Shown one piece after another: positions 8,622-52,089 of a DNA stretch of 64,000 bases (positions within the stretch are counted from its first letter, which is position 1; each line of letters opens with the position of its first letter). The notes under the pieces were generated by a model. That model was not told where the DNA came from. It did not search any database and worked only from the letters and a program-made list of their open reading frames with translations. This stretch comes from Liolophura sinensis (taxonomy: Eukaryota > Mollusca > Polyplacophora > Chitonida > Chitonidae): contig NC_088302.1 in NCBI RefSeq assembly GCF_032854445.1, forward strand, positions 20,207,338 to 20,271,337, written 5' to 3'. The translations under genes and the position numbers were made by a program.

Positions 8622-8898
8622 GGCGGGTTCTCCGTGGCTCAGGTGGTTAGCGCGCTAGCGCAGCGTAATGACCCAGGAGTCTCCCACCAATGCGGTCGCT
8701 GTGGGTTCACGTCCAGCTCATGCTGGCTTCCTCTCCGGCCGTACGTGGGAAGGTCTTCAAGCAACCTGCGGATGGTCGTGGGTTTCCCCCGGGCTGTACC
8801 CGGTTTCCCCTCAACATAATGCTGGCTGCCGTCTTATAAGTGAAATATTCTTGAGTACAGCGTAAAACACCAATCAAATAAAAAAATAAATAAATAAC
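8622..8898 (+). mobile_element. Full-length tRNA-derived SINE with perfect target-site duplication
   Basis: The tRNA-like head at about 8630-8710 has an A-box-like GTGGCTCAGGTGGTTAGCG and a B-box-like GTGGGTTCACGTCC. It is followed by the SINE body (GCGGATGGTCGTGGGTTTCC), a GTGAAATATTCTTGAGTAC motif and an AAATAAATAAAT tail. The 10-bp direct repeat CAGTTAATTG flanks it at 8612-8621 and 8899-8908, the mark of LINE-style target-primed insertion. This is the most complete + strand copy and the best reference for the family here. Confidence 0.92.
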
Positions 8899-25949: not shown

Positions 25950-26175
25950 TTTTATTTTTTTTATTTAATTGGTAATTTACGCGGTACTCAAGAATATTTC
26001 TCTTATACGATGGCGGCCAGCACCATGGTGGGCGAAAGCCAGGCAGCCTTCCCAAGTACGATCGGAGAGGACGTTAGCATGAGCTGGACTTGAGCTCACA
26101 GCGACAATTTTGGTGAGAGAATCCTGGGTCATTGGGCTGCACTAGCACACTAACCACTAGGCCACAAATGCCCCC
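25950..26175 (-). mobile_element. tRNA-derived SINE, near full length, inverted
   Basis: Minus-strand copy. The T-rich tail is at 25950-25970 and the GCGGTACTCAAGAATATTTC motif follows it. The body is at 25995-26090 and the tRNA-like head at 26090-26175 (the reverse complement reads GTGGCCTAGTGGTTAGTGTG). It is diverged in the central core. Confidence 0.85.
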
Positions 26176-27780: not shown

Positions 27781-27969
27781 TACATCAAGTCCAGTTCATG
27801 CTGGCTTCCTCTCCGGCTGTAAGTGGGAAGGTTTGTCAGCAGCCTGCGGATGGCTGTGGGTTTCCCCCGGGCTCTGCCCGGTTTCCCCCCAACATAATTC
27901 TGGCCGCCGTCGTATAAGTGAAATATTCTTGAATATGGCGTAAAACACCAATCAAATAAATAAATAAAT
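27781..27969 (+). mobile_element. 5'-truncated SINE with target-site duplication
   Basis: Starts inside the SINE at CAAGTCCAG and runs through a well-preserved body to the GCGTAAAACACCAATCAAAT end and A-rich tail. AAAACTAT flanks it at 27773-27780 and 27970-27977. Four more bases match with one mismatch if the repeat is extended. Truncation at the 5' end together with a duplication indicates LINE-type reverse transcription and insertion. Confidence 0.9.
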
Positions 27970-28020
27970 AAAACTATGCATAAATATACTTTCATTTATT
28001 TTTTTAGATTTTTGTGCAGA

Positions 28021-29180: not shown

Positions 29181-29247
29181 AGGAGGATTCAATGTTTATA
29201 AGTGCGGGGATGATCCAAGGTTCCAAGCAAGGGGCTTTCAAGATTTA

Positions 29248-29420
29248 TTTATTTATTTATTTGATTGGTGTTTTACGCCGTACTCAAGAATATTTCACTT
29301 ATACGACGGCGGTCAGCATTATGGTGGGTGGAAACCGGGCACAGCCCGGGGGAAACCCACAACCATCCGCAGGTTGCTGTCAGACCTTCCCACTTACGGC
29401 CGGAGAGGAAGCCAGCATGA
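29248..29420 (-). mobile_element. 5'-truncated SINE with perfect 13-bp target-site duplication
   Basis: Inverted copy: TTTATTTATTTATTTGATTG tail, then the reverse complement of the SINE body to GAAGCCAGCATGA. CTTTCAAGATTTA flanks it at 29235-29247 and 29421-29433. It is well preserved, so insertion was fairly recent. It sits about 80 bp from the end of the DUF7869 element. Confidence 0.92.
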
Positions 29421-29854: not shown

Positions 29855-30838
29855 GTTAAACCAATCACATTACCTAATTCTGGTCATGTGATCACAACAA
29901 ATTGGACAACTTTTTTAAAGACAATTCAGTCAGGATGTTCTCACGTTTTCTGTACCCATTATCGAGAAGACCACGATGGTGCTGTTGATAAGGAAAACAC
30001 CAGTATATTTACTGTAGATATGCAAAAGGTTATCCTCCTTCCCAAAATGACCATCAAAGAACATTTCTTTGTTAGCAGATTAGTTGTCTTCAATGAGACA
30101 TTTGCATCAGTAAAAGAAGACGGTGACTTTGTTATTTTGTGGCATGAGGCTATCAGGGGTAGATTAGGAGTTGACATTGCCTCCACGTATATAAAGTGTT
30201 TGTGCCTTTGTGAGACAGATTTTGTGATATTCTGGGCAGACAACTGCACGGGACAAAACAAAAACTGGGTCCCTTACACGGTGTTGTGTTGGTGTGTCAA
30301 TCAACCCTGGGGCCCACAAAGTATCACAATGAAGTATTTTGAAAGGGGACACACTTTTATGCGTGCAGACAGCGTCCATGGCTGCATTGGAAGGAAAATG
30401 AAGAAATGTCCCGAGATTTGTAATTTCCAGGACTTCGTAGATTTGTGTGACAAATCGGGAACTAAGATCAAGCCAATCACAATGCAATACCATGACTTTT
30501 ATGAATTTGAGGACGGTCACGGTAATAGAAAGTCCAAGAACGTAACGCTACCTCATCTCAGCTCCATATCAGTGGCAGAATTTCGTAAAGGTTCACGCGC
30601 AATGTGGTTTAAGGAGGGTTTTGAAGGAGACTACATGTACCAGGAAGTTGACTTTCTTAAACCCAAGTTCAGACTGGACTTTACACCACCAACACAGAAT
30701 GAACCAAGAGGAATTCCTAGCGTGAAACGCCAGAATATTCTGAAACTGGCCGATTCATTCCCCGCTGCTAAGAGGAAATTCTGGCAGGAAATTCCAGTAA
30801 ATGACAACAATGATGACCTTGTTGAACACTTTGGGTGA
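29855..30838 (+). CDS. DUF7869-like protein, N-terminally truncated, transposon-associated
   Basis: One frame is open from 29855 to the TGA at 30836-30838. There is no in-frame ATG until 30020; a GTG lies at 29888, so the N-terminus is uncertain. The protein shows the block order I associate with DUF7869 proteins: FTVDMQKVILLPK, then SRLVVFNETF, then FWADNCTGQNKN, then FERGHTFMRADSVHG. The Asp and His residues in these blocks look like a nuclease/transposase-type acidic site, which is inference. The cysteine-rich N-terminal part usual in longer relatives is missing; the hairpin lies where it would be expected. A poly(A) signal AATAAA follows at 31040-31045. Function is unknown; the flanking inverted repeats suggest a transposon protein or remnant. 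Confidence 0.7.
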   Translation, partial: VKPITLPNSGHVITTNWTTFLKTIQSGCSHVFCTHYREDHDGAVDKENTSIFTVDMQKVILLPKMTIKEHFFVSRLVVFNETFASVKEDGDFVILWHEAIRGRLGVDIASTYIKCLCLCETDFVIFWADNCTGQNKNWVPYTVLCWCVNQPWGPQSITMKYFERGHTFMRADSVHGCIGRKMKKCPEICNFQDFVDLCDKSGTKIKPITMQYHDFYEFEDGHGNRKSKNVTLPHLSSISVAEFRKGSRAMWFKEGFEGDYMYQEVDFLKPKFRLDFTPPTQNEPRGIPSVKRQNILKLADSFPAAKRKFWQEIPVNDNNDDLVEHFG

Positions 30839-33140: not shown

Positions 33141-35007
33141 CGGGTTATACATGCTCGTTGGCCTACAGGTACATTCTAAGCAACGGTAGTCTATAAGTTA
33201 TTATCAAATCTGTGCCTAACGAAATATCAGTTTAATAGTCGCTATAACAGTATTTACATGTGTTTTTTCAAGTCTGTCAGAGTTCTTGTAAATACTGGGA
33301 AGAACTCTTGGAGACTGCCGAAGGTGCATATCAATCGGGATCTATCAGGGGTTAAGCGGGCTGGTCGGCGTACAAAAGGTTTGACACACTGAACGGTACA
33401 GAACCACGTGTGAAAACAATAAAATGGTGATTCTTATGTGCGGCAGCCGGGCACAGACCTCTAGGGTACACCAAAAAATAATTTTATCGGTCACAATCAC
33501 GTGCGACAACCTGATCACAGAAAGTTAATTCTTAAGTTTCCAGGTCATTCCACTAAGCCACTTAAGAACGGTCTAATTAACGCTAATTATGACTTCTATC
33601 GGCCATGGTGCGTACAAGGCAATTTTTTTTACCAAAAGATACCTTTGGATATGCTAATTATAAAATGTTAATTCTTAAGTTCAAACTCCATGCTAAGAAC
33701 CATTAAAGAACGAGTCAATGGACAATATTTGGGCTAAATTACCTTAAAACAAGGGTATTGGTCACATTTGAGTACGAGGATGACACTTATTTGTTACATT
33801 CATCAAGACAACCTGATCGCTCAAAAACAATTCTTAAGTCCCCGGGTCTTGATCTGTAATGATCAGTTCTTAACTGTTCTGCTTAGGTACTAAATCCCAC
33901 ATTAAAGTTAATTATGATTTTTCCTATGTCATGTCGAGTATGAGAATTATTTTTTGACGAAAATTGCTAAGGACGTTCCAGCATGCACATATACACTTAA
34001 GAACTGATCAAAAGTTATCTACCGACCAAGGCAGCAGGACTGCAACATGATTCGTGTTCTGCCGGCTCTGGAAGGGGGCCGACCATCGCCAGGCGCCTGA
34101 CAAACAGCAGGACTTAAAGCCGCAGTCTAAACAACGCGACCTTCATTAGAACACGATTCAGTGCTTTAATATTACGAACAAAGCCGTTAAAGGGCCACGT
34201 AATTAACGCTTTTCTGACATCCTTTGGTAATGTCGGTTACGCAGGTAAATTTGTGCAACAAGATGCACTAGGATATGGTCATTATAAAATGGTAATTCTC
34301 CATGTCTTTAATCCTTTGTTCTCATTGGATTATAAGGATGGATCAGATTTAATGAAATGGCTCAAATTATTTTCTGAATAGGGGTAAATTACAATAATGG
34401 AAAGTCGCGTTTTCAATGACAAAATCTGAACAGAAAAAAACGAGTACACTGCCATTACTTTTGAATGTCAAATGCACTTAGAATTATATTTCAACATCAT
34501 TACCTGTGTCTTATCTGGAGAATGACAGCTTGAAGCTACTCCTAGTGGGGTTTATTTGTTCTACCTTCTACATTTGTCAAGAAGAGATGGAGTTCCAACT
34601 CTAACATGCAAAAACAAGCTGCACAGTGACATGTCATTCTGAAAAATGTATTAACAACAATAAGAAAAAATATGACAATGGTTTAATATGACAAAATGTT
34701 CTCTTTAAGATTCACTTCGATCAATTCAGAGCTAAGAAAAGAAAAATATTAGAAAAATATTTATTATCTGAATGGGAGGTTAGGAAAAACGTCTCGGTCT
34801 AGGTTTTCTTCGCTTGACAAGTCGTCTATTGCGGGGGGGGGATAATTTACTGCTATTTATGCATTTACATGATTAATTAGAATGTAACTCTTAGATAAAC
34901 TGACAAGATGCCGTATTTTATCGATTACGCGTGACCATTTACCACCTAAACATTGTCGTCGCTGCTCTGTTTTTTCTCCATGTGCTGTACGTCTTGATAT
35001 TCTTCTT

Positions 35008-35133
35008 CATCTGATGACGAGACTTCATCTGATGTCGAGACTTCATCTGATGACGAGACTTCATCTGATGTCGAGACTTCATCTGATGACGAGACTTCAT
35101 CTGATGTGGAGACTTCATCTGATGTCTTTCCTC
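35008..35133. repeat. 18-bp tandem array in the inverted-repeat spacer
   Basis: Seven copies of CATCTGATGACGAGACTT at exact 18-bp steps (35008 to 35116), alternating GACGAG with GTCGAG or GTGGAG. On the minus strand it reads as a 6-residue HQMKSR repeat inside a 76-codon open frame. I judge that frame a by-product of the repeat. Confidence 0.9.
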
Positions 35134-35768
35134 GTCATCCGAATCACCTTGTATTAAACCTGAAACCATTGTGTCCAGGAGCCATAGTTTATTATTGTTG
35201 CTAAGACATTTTTCTAAGACATTTTCTTAAGACATGTCACTGTGCACCTTGTTTTGCATGTTGGGGAACGTTTTGCTCTTCACAAATGTAGAAGGCAGAA
35301 CAAATAAACCCACGAGGAGTAGCGTGAAGCTATCGTTCTCCAGAAAAAGACACAGGCAATGACGTCCAAAAATAATTCTAAGTGCATTTGGCATTCTAAA
35401 ATAATTGCTTCTCATTTCTTCTGTTCAGATTTTTTTATCTTTAAAGCGACTTTTAAGCACGGACCCGATTGGGTTATTGTGAAATGCTCCGCGTATCCCG
35501 TTCTACAAAATAATTTCAGCCATTTCATTAAATCTGGTCCAGTCTTAAGCCAATCAGAACAAAGGATTGAAGACATTAAGAATTACCATTTTATAATAAC
35601 CATATCCTGATGCACCTTGTTGCACAAGTTAAACTGCGTAACAGACATTGCCAAAATAGCGTTAATTAGGTGGTTCTTCAGTGGCTTGGTTTATTATATT
35701 AAAGCGTTGACTGGTGTTCCACTTTAGCATGACAGTCCTGCTTTCTTGGTCGGTAGATAACTTTTGAT

Positions 35769-36620
35769 CTGTTCTCAAGTGTACATGTGCATGTGGGAAC
35801 TTCGTTAACATTTGAAAATCACTGTATCTCAAAGTACCTTTTGGTCAAAAAATCGTTCTCGTACTAGACTAGGAAAAATCAGATTTGATGTTAATTAGTG
35901 GTTTAGTACATAAGTTGAACACTTATGAAGTATTTTTTAGTGATCATGTGCCTTGACTCGAACTCAGTTGTCACTGATACCTTCGTTTTAAGGTAATTTA
36001 GTCCAAATATTGACCTCTTACCCGTTCTTAACTGGTTTTTAGTTGGGAGTTGGAACTTAAGAATTAACATTTTAAAATTAGCACATCTCAAGGTATCTTT
36101 TGGTTAAAAAAAAACCCTCGTACGCGACATGACCGATGAAAGTCATAATTAACGTTAATTAGGCCCTTCTCAAGTGGCTTAATGCATAACCTGGGAACTG
36201 CAGAATTTGTTTTTAACGATCAGGTTGTCTTGAAGAATGCATAAAACAAGTTTCATCCTTGTACTCAATTGTGACCGAAGCCCTTATTCTAAGGTATTTT
36301 AGCCCAAATATTGACCTTTGACCCGTTCTTAAATGGTTTTTAGCATGGAGTTGGAACTTAAGAATTGACATTTTATAATTAGCTTATATCAAGGTATCTT
36401 TTGGTGAAAAAAATTTTCATCGTAGGCGACATGATCGATAAAAGTTATAATTAGCGCTCCTTAGGCCGTTCTTAAGTGGCTTAGTGCAAGACATGGGGAG
36501 ATAAGAACTTGTCACAGTTAAGAATCGCCATTTTGGCGTTTTCACACATGGTTCTGTATGTTCAAATGAGTCAAACATTTCGTACGCGACCTGACAGATA
36601 AACCCCTGCTAGCTCCCGTG
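35769..36620. repeat. Tandem units of 250-300 bp inside the right arm
   Basis: Units start with a GTTCT(T/C)AA motif at about 35771, 36023 and 36324 (steps of about 252 and 301 bp). Each continues with GGAACTT, AACATTT and a TCAA(A/G)GTA(C/T)CTTTTGGT segment. Matching units occur in reverse complement in the left arm (for example CCAAAAGATACCTTTGG near 33634). The arm was therefore built by tandem duplication before or after inversion. Confidence 0.75.
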
Positions 36621-38750
36621 TTATGTATACATGTAAGTCCACCAAAAGTTAATAACTTTGAACAGCAATCTCTAGTACGGGAGGTAAGAAAGAACGATAA
36701 GGATGGTTGTTTGAGGGAGACGGAGTGCCAGCGTTCTTTCATATTAATAGTGCAAACGTTAGCACAAAATGTTAACAACATTGGAGAAAGAAGGCTTTAG
36801 ACAAATTTTAAACAAACTGTCGCATGAGAAGTTGATGCTTTAAAAGATACAGTGACAAAAAAGCTGATTGTCACTCACGGAAAGGGCGGTGAGTGCAACA
36901 GAGTACAACAACAACACTTACGGAAAGTTTCACTTTCGTATCCAGCAGAAACTTTCTAACTAGACCTTAGTACAGCTATTGTGATAAATTTAACGGCATG
37001 CTCCAGTTTTATTAAGAAGTCGATACATGTAGATTGATTAAGATTTTCCAGATTAAGATTAAGCAGTTTGTTTGCTCAAAACCGGCATGTATATTAGTAA
37101 AAAGTAGTGCTTCATTAAGCGTAGCCCTGAAAGACTCCAACTCCTTTTCTCAAACTGGCCTAGTGTCATTGGAGTCTACAGTGTTAATTTCGTACTCAAC
37201 GAAGGTCCAGGCCGAATCTCTTTGTTATGGAACAAATGTCAACCAAGACCTGCTTTCTGCACCCACCGTACCGCCATCATACGTCCCTGCTTGATTTAGA
37301 ATAGGTTTATTATAGCAATGAAAGCTTCTGTGGTATTTGCTCCCAAGCCAATGCCGCCATCTTCCCATTACACTATGAAGCAGGACATGCACGTAGGTGC
37401 TCAACATGGTGGCAGTCGCAGCAGAGCATATACCATGGAAGCCTTCATGGCTATAATAAGTCTGAATTGAGTAGGGATGTAAGGTGGTGGCGCGGTTGGA
37501 ATGGAAAGCAGGTTTTAGGTTGGTGTCTTTATTTGCTGGGTTGGCGTAGTCATGGCAAGTCAGCCCCATATTCATGACAAACGGCAAACTATGTCAAAAC
37601 AAATCAGACATGATTATAAGTTTTACTGCTCATACGCACTGTCCAGGAAGAGAATTCTGCCAATACCATATCTGTCGTTAGCGCAAAATAGCTATGGATG
37701 TGTTCTGGCTGTGTCATGAGTTTAGGGGTGAAGTGCCATTACCAAGTGGAATATAAGAGTTAAGAGGTGGTGCATGTGGCTGACATTGTTTAGAAAGACA
37801 TCATTTCGAAACAGATTTAGCATGAAATGGTGTATGGTTTACCAGTTTCTTCTGCTATGATTATGATACCCTGCTATCCCCATTATAAAAAGAGGAGTGA
37901 AACAGCTCCCTGGGTCAGGGACTAACCTAAGATGTCACCTTAGCTCAGATTCCTATTGGCATACTGACAGACAGAGAGCTACAAGGGGGAAAGGTATAGA
38001 AATTGGGCACTTATTAAACCACAGATCATTCATTGAACATCAGAAAGGAAAAGTAAGGATCCACTATTCAGTAAAAAAAAAACCTGTTTTCAGCTTACTG
38101 AACATATATACTGCTAATATTTCTGCTTCACATGAACAATGGCCACACAAATTTAAATTCTTGTTTTACGAGAAGGGATAAATCATTTTTTCAATGTTGT
38201 CGGAGGTATAAAGATAAATATAAAACTTGGAAATCATCCTTCGTGTGGGAAATATGGACTAAAATAGGAATTTGTTCTGCTGAAGACATATCTACATGAC
38301 TGGAAAACCTTAGAAAAAAAACGGAAATTATAAAATCATCAAAACCCGACAGAAATACAAAGGTAGATTTTCAGCTTTATTTTCATTCCATTTATGGACT
38401 TTCTAGTGCTGTCTCAATTGTTAAAAAAAAAGGTGAAGAATTTGTTTGATAACCATAATATTATTTTCAACATGACTCCTGAGGCAAGAGGAAGATTCTC
38501 TCAGAAAGACTCTGTTTAAACAAGAACGAGCTGCACTGTCAATCATACTGTAATAATGTCATACAGTGTGGAGTGCAGACTAAGTCTTGTCACTTTTGTG
38601 TATGTGTGTTCCAGCAGTGCACTGACATGTATCCTGTCTAATTAATTCTACACGTCATGGTATGATAATCCACTTCCTGCAGCCCATGTGGCAGGGCAGA
38701 TCATCTTGCAACACTTAGGAGCAAATTTTAATCTTTGTTAGCTGTTACAA
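36621..38750. other. No recognisable gene
   Basis: Open frames at 37225-37587 (-) and 37897-38181 (+) show no recognisable domain or splice context. The missing first exon of the C3orf38 homologue could lie here or in the following gap; I did not find it. Confidence 0.4.
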
Positions 38751-39360: not shown

Positions 39361-41693
39361 AAGCAATTGATGCCATTATAACCTTCAGTGAAACAGCCCT
39401 TGAGTTACTGAAACGGAGGAAGGTGAAAAGAGATGCTTTGTTTCGGTACCTGGCAGACAGGAATGTCCCAGTTAATCCTGCAGCAGAAAAACACCAGCTG
39501 ATTAGAAAGATCCTCATATTATGGGGTAGTCATTTTAATGATGCAGAGGTATGTTGAGCAGGTTAAAACCCAACCAATCTTTGCCTCTAGAATCTTTGTA
39601 ATCCTGATACGATATAAATATCTAATAAGATAACAGACAGTTTCGCACCTGATCAGTCAATAAAAAAAAATTTAAAAAAAAAAGAAAAGATCTCCAGTCA
39701 ACAGTCCAGTCACACTGAAATCTTAATATGACCCTCTGTCTCATTCTAGAACATGACATACATAAGAAATACTAGATCTGACTGTCGTTAGATTGAAAAC
39801 TGAAGCACTGGCTCCTAATTATTAAATGCGTATTCAAGTTGAATGCATTTTTAGTAAAGTTTTATATAATGCTGAGAGCCTCACAAAACTTGTGACTCAG
39901 TCAGTCTTCTCTCTAACCCATCACATGTCACTGCTGGTTGGGTGCTAAAATAGAATATTTCATGGTAGGTGAATGAGTTATTCTTTCAAATGTTACTCTT
40001 ATCATTAGAGTTTATAAAAAGAAATGTTTTTCGTGTATATTTGATGATTGTGAAGAATCATTTATCGATCTGTTCTTGTGTTTAATAGATTGAGGAGACG
40101 GTCAGTGTGGAGTCTGTTTTTAACAGGCGTATGTTGCTACCAGGTAATGGACAGGAAATAGCGAGATCTACTGACTTAACCCCTCAGGGTTCAGTTGTTG
40201 AGCTCAGTTGCCGCCGGAGATACCACAGGACCATTAGGTATCCTTCAAATACAGTATGGCCAGAACATACCAACCATAGCGTGAACGTGGTCAACGCAGT
40301 GCAGAATGCGACGGCGCAATTTTCCAATACACCATCGACAGCTTCTGATAATAGCATCACTACCCAAATCCTAGGTGGAGGGAATCGCAACAGTCAAAGA
40401 GACAACAGTAGTGTTCGCCACTCCACTAACACAGTACAGTCTGTGACAGCTCGTACTTCCCAAACCAGATCAACTGCCTCTGAAATTATTGGCACTGCCC
40501 AGAGCTCACATGCAGAGAATCGCAACAGTAGAAGAGACAACAGTAGTGTTCGCCACTCCACGAACACAGTACAGACTGTTACAGCTCATGCTTCCAAAAG
40601 CCAATCAACTGCTTCTGTAAAAGTCATCACTGCCCAGAGCTCACATGCAGGGGATCGCAACAGTAGAAGAGACAACAGTAGTGTTCGCCACTCCACGAAC
40701 ACAGTACAGTCTGTGACAGCTCGTACTTCCCAAACCAGATCAACTGCTTCTGAAAATATTGGCACTGCCCAGAGCTCACATGCAGGGAATCACAACAGTA
40801 GAAGAGACAACAGTAGTGTTCGCCACCCCACAAACACAGTACAGTCTGTGACAGCTCATAGTTCCCAAACCCGATCAACTGCTTCTGAAAATATTGGCAC
40901 TGCCCAGAGTGCTCCTCTAGGGGATCGTAACAACCAAAAAGACAACAGGAGCATTCGTAACTCTAGGGACACACAACGTCCTTGCTCAGAACGAACTGCT
41001 TCAGAGAATGTTGTTCCACATCAGAGCGCAAGAGACCGCTCACCTCTTCATGAGCTTAGCAGTCAGAGAGGCTCCCAGGGAGAGTACAGGAGCATTCTTC
41101 ACTCCACAGACACAGTGCAGCTTCCCACAGAGTCTACTTGCCTAGTCACCAAGCCAGATGCTGCAGAAAACGCTGTGGCTCACCAAAGCCAACCCGATAA
41201 AAACTTTGAACTTGGCAAGGAATTTGTTAAGTGGTATTACAAAATTTTGAATTCTTACAATCCCTCACTTCAGAGTACTCCTGACGGGGAGTTCGGGCCA
41301 CAGCACTTCTGGTCAGATTGCCGGCTGAAAATGCAGAGTGTTGTTCAAGGGGAGGTAAATGTGGAGAACTTTGAGGGCTGCGGTATTGTGGCGAACAGAT
41401 GCCTGGCATTGGTGAAAGAGGAACGTCTGCTGTTCAATCCCAATATAGACATGGACGGTATCAAAGTGAAAACGGAGCCCCATGGACTGGTGCTAGTGTT
41501 GACCTGTGGTACTCTCCACAGGGTTAATGACTGCCTCGGCGTGTTTGAGCAGCTCTTCGGACTAATCAGTGACCCAGCTATGGACAATAACTGGAAAGTT
41601 AAAATGTCAACGTTGACAATGAAAAGCTCCCAGCACCCGACAATGCCAAAGCTTGGTAATGGTGAGCAGCTGTTGGCCATTCAACCCCCATAA
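39361..41693 (+). CDS. C3orf38: C3orf38 homologue (DUF4518 family), 5' end missing
   Basis: Two exons are visible: 39361-39548 and 40089-41693 (stop TAA), joined in frame across a GT..AG intron. The first encodes AIDAIITFSETALELLKRRK..., matching the helical N-terminal part of human C3orf38. The second ends in the conserved C-terminal domain: GKEFVKWYYKILNSYNP, FGPQHFWSDCRLK, RCLALVKEERLLF, EPHGLVLVLTCGTLHRVND, CLGVFEQLFGL. The human protein is about 330 aa; 596 residues are visible here because a long Ser/Thr/Asn/Arg-rich linker with 45-residue tandem repeats separates the two conserved parts. The first exon is not visible and may lie in the gap at 38751. Function is poorly known; a role in apoptosis has been suggested for the human protein. 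Confidence 0.93.
40380..41054 (+). repeat. 135-bp in-frame tandem repeats in the C3orf38 coding region
   Basis: AGAGACAACAGTAGTGTTCG starts at 40398, 40533, 40668 and 40803, exactly 135 bp apart. A diverged fifth copy follows at 40938 and a weak one near 41080. The unit encodes 45 residues rich in Ser, Thr, Asn and Arg (RDNSSVRHSTNTVQSVTA). The four central copies are nearly identical at DNA level, showing recent duplication or gene conversion. The encoded segment is probably disordered. Confidence 0.95.
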
Positions 41694-42131: not shown

Positions 42132-42383
42132 AGGTGCTAGTCATGGGCTGGTAAAGTACTATAGATGCTAGTCATGGGCTGGTAAAGTACTATAGATGCT
42201 AGTCATGGGCTGGTAAAGTACTGTAGGTGCAAGTCATGGGCTGGTAAACTACTGTAGGTGTGAGTCATGGTCTCTTAAACTACTGTATGTGCTAGTCATG
42301 GGCTCGTAAACTACTGTATTTGCAAGTAATGTGCTGGTAAAGTACCTTAGGTGATTGTCATGGGCTGGTAATCTACTGTGGAT
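42132..42383 (+). repeat. 31-bp tandem array, about eight copies
   Basis: The unit GCTAGTCATGGGCTGGTAAA plus about 11 bp (AGTACTATAGAT) repeats every 31 bp (42135, 42166, and so on). The first three copies are nearly identical and later ones diverge. It lies 440 bp downstream of the C3orf38 stop. Confidence 0.9.
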
Positions 42384-42441: not shown

Positions 42442-42642
42442 ACCAATGCGGTTGCTGTGAATTCAAGTCCAGCTCATGCTGGCTTCCTCTCCGGCCATAA
42501 GTGGGAAGGTCTGCCAGCAACCTGCGGATGGTCGTGGGTTTCCCACGGGCCTGGTTTCCACCCACCATAATGCTGGCCGCCGTCATATAAGTGAAATATT
42601 CTTGAGTACGGCGTAAAACACCAATCAAATAAATAAATAAAT
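42442..42642 (+). mobile_element. 5'-truncated SINE with perfect 11-bp target-site duplication
   Basis: Begins at ACCAATGCGGTTGCTGTGAA, within the tRNA-like head, and runs to the A-rich tail. AAACACTTTTG flanks it at 42431-42441 and 42643-42653. It is closely similar to the copies at 27781 and 51498, so the group is young. Confidence 0.93.
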
Positions 42643-42653
42643 AAACACTTTTG

Positions 42654-51497: not shown

Positions 51498-51699
51498 AAT
51501 GCGGTTGCTGTGAGTTCAAGTCCAGCTCATGCTGGCTTCCTCTCCGGCCGTACGTGGGAAGGTATTCCAGCAACCTGCGGATGGTCGTGGGTTTCCCCCA
51601 GGCTCTGCCTGGTTTCCTCCCAACATAATGCTGGCCGCCGTCGTATTAGTGAAATATTCTTGAGTACGGCGTAAAACACCAATCAAATAAATAAATAAA
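51498..51699 (+). mobile_element. 5'-truncated SINE with target-site duplication
   Basis: Begins at AATGCGGTTGCTGTGAGTTC, nearly the same truncation point as the copy at 42442, and ends in AAATAAATAAAT. TCTGAGTTTTTTC at 51485-51497 and TCTGAGTATTTTTC from 51700 form an imperfect target-site duplication. Well preserved. Confidence 0.9.
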
Positions 51700-52089
51700 T
51701 CTGAGTATTTTTCTTCCCTGTGATACATAGCTGTCTTAATTTAGTGAGGCAGCATGAAGCGTCCTTTTCTAGTACAATTTCTAGGGCCAAGAACTTTGGC
51801 ATTAGCATTATGCTACACCCTGCTATGCATTACAAGACACCATCATAACAAGATCGAAGAAACTATTGAAAGCCATGTTCAACCTCAAACACTGAAGTTG
51901 TACTTGTAGGGAAGCACATATATCTTCTCAAAAGTAATCTTGTTGGAAGATCTAGGGAAAGAGTCGAGAATTTTATAGTTGTTTAAATTATTCAACATGG
52001 ACCTGGTGGGATGCAGTTGTGTCCCAGATGCATGTTTTGATACAAGTATGTGTATATACTTGATACATACTGGTACTCTTTTGTTTTCC

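Follow-up and report, generated by a model that had tools for sequence, protein, structure and literature searches.

Several described transposons resemble the element that we report here in one respect or another. Tetris of Drosophila virilis has a terminal domain that shares a 37-bp stretch with its internal repeats, makes target-site duplications of 8-10 bp and has been referred to Mutator (PMC4079207). In Galileo, which belongs to the P superfamily, secondary transposase-binding sites have been demonstrated inside the repeats (PMC3688188). AcademX elements generate target-site duplications of 3-4 bp (PMC10045372), and Academ elements have been reported to be expanded in bivalves (PMC10294476). 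Among the papers searched, none pairs 'Academ' with 'foldback'. The origin of kilobase-long terminal inverted repeats is usually inferred, the ancestral state being lost. The element that we describe from the mollusc Liolophura sinensis is of a known kind; the family is new, and its origin can be traced with unusual clarity.

The window analysed here is a 64,000-nucleotide stretch of the genome (NC_088302.1, positions 20,207,338 to 20,271,337, forward strand), in which a preliminary description had placed a giant inverted repeat lacking any open reading frame. The parts of the element, in window coordinates, are as follows.

33331-36623, no strand: whole foldback element, 3293 bp, its ends set by the alignment of 49 termini and by 12 paired copies
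33331-34674, plus strand: left arm, 1344 bp, the UTR-side arm of the arm tree, ending at the shared ...AACAATAA..TATG
35183-36623, minus strand: right arm, 1441 bp, breakpoint-side in the arm tree and pairing with the left arm as its reverse complement
34675-35182, no strand: loop (unpaired middle), 508 bp, probably the lost gene's 3' untranslated flank and last codons, from homology to C6:25156970-25160989
35155-35181, minus strand: gene-tail remnant, the last 8 codons and stop, LPDTMVPD plus stop in the family and decayed to LLDTMVSG in the window copy
35182-35183, no strand: founding breakpoint, the joint of inverted arm and gene tail, ...AATAATAAACTATG|GCTCCCGGACA read on the minus strand
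33331-33378, plus strand: left terminus, family consensus TAGTCCGGGAGCTAGCAGAGGTTTATCGGTCAGGTCGCGTACGAAAGG
36576-36623, minus strand: right terminus, reverse complement of the consensus TAGTCCGGGAGCTAGCAGAGGTTTATCGGTCAGGTCGCGTACGAAAGG
33352-33946, plus strand: left-arm occurrences of the terminal core motif TTATCGGTCAGGTCGCGTACGA, facing inward, at element positions 22, 154, 265 and 594
36117-36601, minus strand: inward copies of the core motif TTATCGGTCAGGTCGCGTACGA in the right arm, at element positions 2810, 3111 and 3271
35005-35126, no strand: 18-bp minisatellite of 6.8 copies in the loop, grown from the CATCAGATGAAG stretch of the gene's 3' flank

The inverted repeat is beyond doubt. When one arm is aligned with the reverse complement of the other, the score is 1019.5, whereas 50 shuffles reach no more than 135.5, and 1026 of the 1226 bases in the alignment are the same (83.7%), far more than the scattered short matches that would have undone the earlier claim. 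They account for two of the top three inverted pairs by score within the 64 kb window, the remaining pair being a dispersed repeat of about 180 bp, far shorter than the arms. The location first proposed, 33335-36620, stands, with ends that fall 3-4 bp short on each side by terminal alignment; the spacer is present and measures 508 bp rather than 478 bp; and the arms do pair, although 'over their whole length' slightly overstates it, since the right arm carries one additional tandem unit of about 300 bp (35957-36112 / 36258-36413) and the arms also differ by indels. The observation that the arms are built of tandem units rich in TTCTTAAG was borne out, TTCTTAAG/CTTAAGAA being found 9 times in the element. 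Long terminal inverted repeats make up 2785 of the 3293 bp, units of about 150/300 bp and a recurring core motif repeat in tandem inside them, and the middle is non-coding. No transposase-like product is encoded in the window element, where the longest stop-to-stop frame lying wholly inside is 95 aa, in agreement with the absence of an ORF and of a transposase noted before, and an Rfam scan of the window gave no match. We had considered the minisatellite as expanded coding codons and dropped this idea; the stop of the family consensus (CCA GAT TGA) precedes it, which places the minisatellite in the 3' flank.

Other repeats and reading frames occur in the same window. The dispersed repeat of about 180 bp (TTTATTTGATTGGTGTTTTACGCCGTACTCAAGAATATTTCACTTATACGACGGCGG...), SINE-like by appearance, is present at 8718-8895, 27796-27975, 29241-29420, 42474-42645 and 51527-51700, more weakly at 25951, 53473 and 54966, and several of the window copies are 92-93% identical. 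Tandem arrays with units of 42, 135 and 31 bp lie at 1965-2458, 40379-40909 and 42132-42379, respectively, the 135-bp array sitting within the open frame of a DUF4518 gene. About 2.5 kb upstream of the element, on the plus strand, an intact open frame of 327 aa (29855-30838) has a sub-threshold similarity to DUF7869 (E = 0.0008) and is possibly transposon-derived.

The element is not alone in its genome. A search of the host assembly (609 Mb, 632 contigs) gave 269 matches to the whole element, separate searches with each end gave 40 scored termini apiece, and the consensus pattern with at most three mismatches hit 27 genomic sites, compared with 0 for a reversed control. A single terminal consensus, TAGTCCGGGAGCTAGCAGAGGTTTATCGG..., was obtained from 49 aligned termini, so the search for other copies with the same ends, proposed as a check at the outset, was answered positively. 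Twelve copies, including that in the window, could be paired end to end, and these are flanked by A/T-rich target-site duplications of 3 bp (z = 5.3 at offset 0, length 3), exact in seven of the twelve (TAA three times, ATA twice, TGG and TTC). Further signals, at lengths of 5, 7 and 9 bp (offsets 1, 2 and 3, respectively), take in those three bases together with element ends and so give no independent evidence of longer duplications. The duplication is a property of the family that can no longer be recognised at the window copy itself, where the flanks ATA (33328-33330) and TGT (36624-36626) disagree and the copy's own duplication has decayed. Other foldback copies have inverted arms of varying length. 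The shared terminal consensus and the 3-bp duplications across copies identify a non-autonomous foldback DNA transposon, the first of the two readings originally put forward. The window feature is a decayed copy of an old family of this type, one of dozens in the genome. In one copy (L015 2838-3221, C5:17057) a 77-bp arm unit is present in 4-5 tandem copies, a local expansion into a satellite-like array as described for Tetris.

One member of the family, the only one found to bear a gene, shows what the foldbacks appear to have lost. This copy of 4020 bp (C6:25156970-25160989), which lies in a TAA/TAA duplication, shares its ends and left arm with the family but has a terminal repeat of just 290 bp (90% identical); a minus-strand gene, now broken, occupies everything from the left arm to the right terminal repeat. 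Sequence related to the TTTATTTGATTGGTGTTTTACGCCGTACTCAAGAATATTTCACTTATACGACGGCGG... repeat is nested in its left arm. A distant relative of the gene at C7:40883800-40886720 is 34% identical to it, and the homology starts precisely on the inner boundary of the right terminal repeat, which indicates that the N-terminal half of the C6 gene is gone. With the gene broken and that half missing, no complete autonomous element was seen. The foldback copies follow the C6 copy as far as a single shared point, 8 codons before the gene's stop; their consensus there reads LPDTMVPD, followed by a stop. The same junction, ...AATAATAAACTATG|GCTCCCGGACA, is found in the window copy and in five others (L009, L010, L011, L014 and L015), and is decayed in L013; since every copy with a readable junction shares this breakpoint, the foldbacks descend from one founder. 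The protein of the C7 relative (C7:40885906-40886628) aligns across the breakpoint (QLPDKAVPEE in C6, QLPDALVPDK in C7), which shows that the tail was coding before the foldback arose, and the presence of this coding tail in the foldbacks gives the direction, from gene to foldback. The foldbacks thus hold the last 8 codons of a lost gene, followed by its 3' flank and an arm, and the other arm would be an inverted copy of the flank joined on at the breakpoint.

We therefore consider it highly probable that this is an old non-autonomous foldback family whose single founder lost all but the last 8 codons of its gene, gained an inverted 3' flank and was mobilised in trans. The ancestor would have been a gene-bearing transposon with a short terminal repeat of about 290 bp. 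In the founder, all of the gene but its last 8 codons would have been lost, and the 3' flank of the gene, copied in inverted orientation, joined on, giving arms of about 1.4 kb; a template switch, end joining or aberrant transposition could each have made the joint. The foldback would subsequently have been mobilised by transposase from a gene-bearing relative, perhaps, and with less certainty than the other steps, an AcademX-like one, through recognition of the terminal motif and of its repeats within the arms. The junction AGCTCCCGGAC, within the gene's last codons, resembles the element terminus AGCTCCCGGACTA. Only tentatively, we suggest that the foldback was born once from an AcademX-like nuclease-bearing transposon and that the joint formed at this microhomology to the element's own terminus (AGCTCCCGGAC ~ AGCTCCCGGACTA). 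If so, aberrant transposition at a cryptic internal end would be a way of making long terminal inverted repeats, with the states before and after kept in one genome.

Which superfamily supplied the transposase is approached through the duplications, the ends and the C6 gene. By eye, the C6 protein has the motif series HEEADT / TDxxVI / TGCDY..KGK, which is XPG/FEN nuclease-like; profiles from Pfam (XPG_I included), NCBIfam or PDB do not support an XPG domain in the C6 gene, and the similarity of the C7 relative to DUF6589 stays under the cut-off (E = 0.019). The 3-bp duplications of the family are of a length found in AcademX and, together with the XPG/FEN-like motif blocks, suggest that the C6 gene's transposon is AcademX-like. 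Genes with DUF6589 above the cut-off at C8:22300805-22302196 (within an open frame of 646 aa) and C4:17747782-17748865 are candidate gene-bearing relatives of this transposon group, and none of the genomic DUF6589 genes lies near any listed terminus. With the ends as defined, nothing stood out at 8-9 bp, within the 8-11 bp range of Mutator/MULE duplications (offset 0, z 0.7 and 0.6), or at the 7-8 bp typical of the P superfamily and Galileo (offset 0, z -0.4 at 7 bp and 0.7 at 8 bp). The mobilising transposase could instead have come from PIF/Harbinger, CMC/EnSpm or Zator, superfamilies that likewise make 3-bp duplications, the C6 gene being an accessory. We take this to be a serious alternative, albeit one that falls short of being probable: 3-bp A/T-rich duplications fit Harbinger also (TWA, to be compared with exact triplets led by TAA (3) and ATA (2)) and no profile identifies the C6 gene as a transposase, but the family termini are TAGTCCGGG rather than CACTA/G-type ends of the CMC/EnSpm kind, the C6 gene spans the whole space from arm to terminal repeat, and the copies read, which leave aside the two cleanest termini (C1:62595763 and C10:34333306), contain no Harbinger ORF and no other transposase ORF.

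The single founder itself can be examined through the arms. In the tree of inner arms all breakpoint-side arms split from all UTR-side arms with support of 100/99, and 10 changes would be required if the arms were grouped by element. Inner-arm identity averages 0.820 within copies and 0.818 between copies, and over the terminal 105 bp the values are 0.850 and 0.829. Given this clustering by side and the lack of any excess likeness within copies, we reject gene conversion, and with it the second of the original readings, an inverted duplication kept similar by that process. The split by side across copies means that the founder already had two slightly different arms, each of which has decayed separately since; the inner arms, 86-93% identical to the consensus, indicate that the family is old. 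The branch between the two arm clades (0.034), which shows that the founder's arms differed before amplification, might be taken to mean that two different copies from separate arm lineages fused to form the founder, and that no single flank was duplicated in inverted orientation. We think this unlikely, as a branch of that length could also build up between formation and amplification, and the arm of the gene-bearing copy joins near the point between the clades.

Nor do we believe that the C6 gene is a later capture by, or a nested insertion into, a foldback and thus uninformative on foldback origin, very improbable as this is to us even though no other copy of the gene was found within the family and its truncation falls precisely on the inner boundary of the right terminal repeat. 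The foldbacks retain the last codons of the gene and its stop, which stay in register with the independent C7 relative across the breakpoint, and the gene block itself contains no inverted repeats. Misassembly is a known hazard of long inverted repeats, but a false inverted join has next to no chance of being the explanation here, given that a false fold should produce near-identical arms rather than arms only 84% identical (about 16% divergence) and that many unlinked loci show this architecture together with target-site duplications. Equally negligible is the chance that host DNA was duplicated in inverted orientation at this one place and held alike by gene conversion, despite arms that are still 84% identical, as dozens of copies have their ends in common and bear target-site duplications, and the arms are no more alike within than between copies and cluster by side, not by element.

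We return to the mobilisation in trans of a foldback descended from one founder. The core of the terminus, TTATCGGTCAGGTCGCGTACGA (about 22 bp), recurs in both arms, pointing inward, every 140-150 bp or so. There are 4-7 matches to it per element compared with 0.15-0.6 in shuffles, and in the window element 7 compared with 0.35 expected from shuffles. By analogy with Galileo and Tetris, we infer that the arm repeats are stacked candidate transposase-binding sites, which would recruit transposase made elsewhere. The repeated terminal motif makes the idea of many transposase-binding sites testable outside Drosophila. The arms also bear on what a transcript might do. The predicted RNA fold has a minimum free energy of -1444 kcal/mol compared with about -790 kcal/mol for shuffles, with 930 of the 1332 left-arm bases paired to the right arm and a longest helix of 30 bp; if the element were transcribed, a long double-stranded RNA hairpin is physically possible according to this model. 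For annotation, the window feature is an ordinary repeat, to be masked rather than annotated as a functional locus.

Like the foldback elements FB of Drosophila and Tetris, the family has long, internally tandem-repetitive terminal inverted repeats and a non-coding middle, without a transposase. AcademX elements share its 3-bp duplications, within their 3-4 bp range, and have a nuclease-bearing gene with which the XPG/FEN-like motifs seen by eye in the C6 gene may be compared, whereas the window copy is non-coding and has foldback arms. As in Galileo, the arms exceed 1 kb and contain tandem repeats, and the internal binding sites shown in Galileo are proposed here by analogy; the termini are different, and the C6 gene, lacking a credible Pfam match, shows no sign of a P-type or THAP domain. 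The likeness to Tetris extends to the terminus, which shares a stretch with the arm repeats, 37 bp in Tetris and a core of about 22 bp here. In contrast to Tetris, with its duplications of 8-10 bp, those of this family are 3 bp long, and a gene-bearing stage and the founding breakpoint are both visible: in one genome, the gene-bearing state can be read alongside the junction that the foldback copies share and the separate history of each arm.
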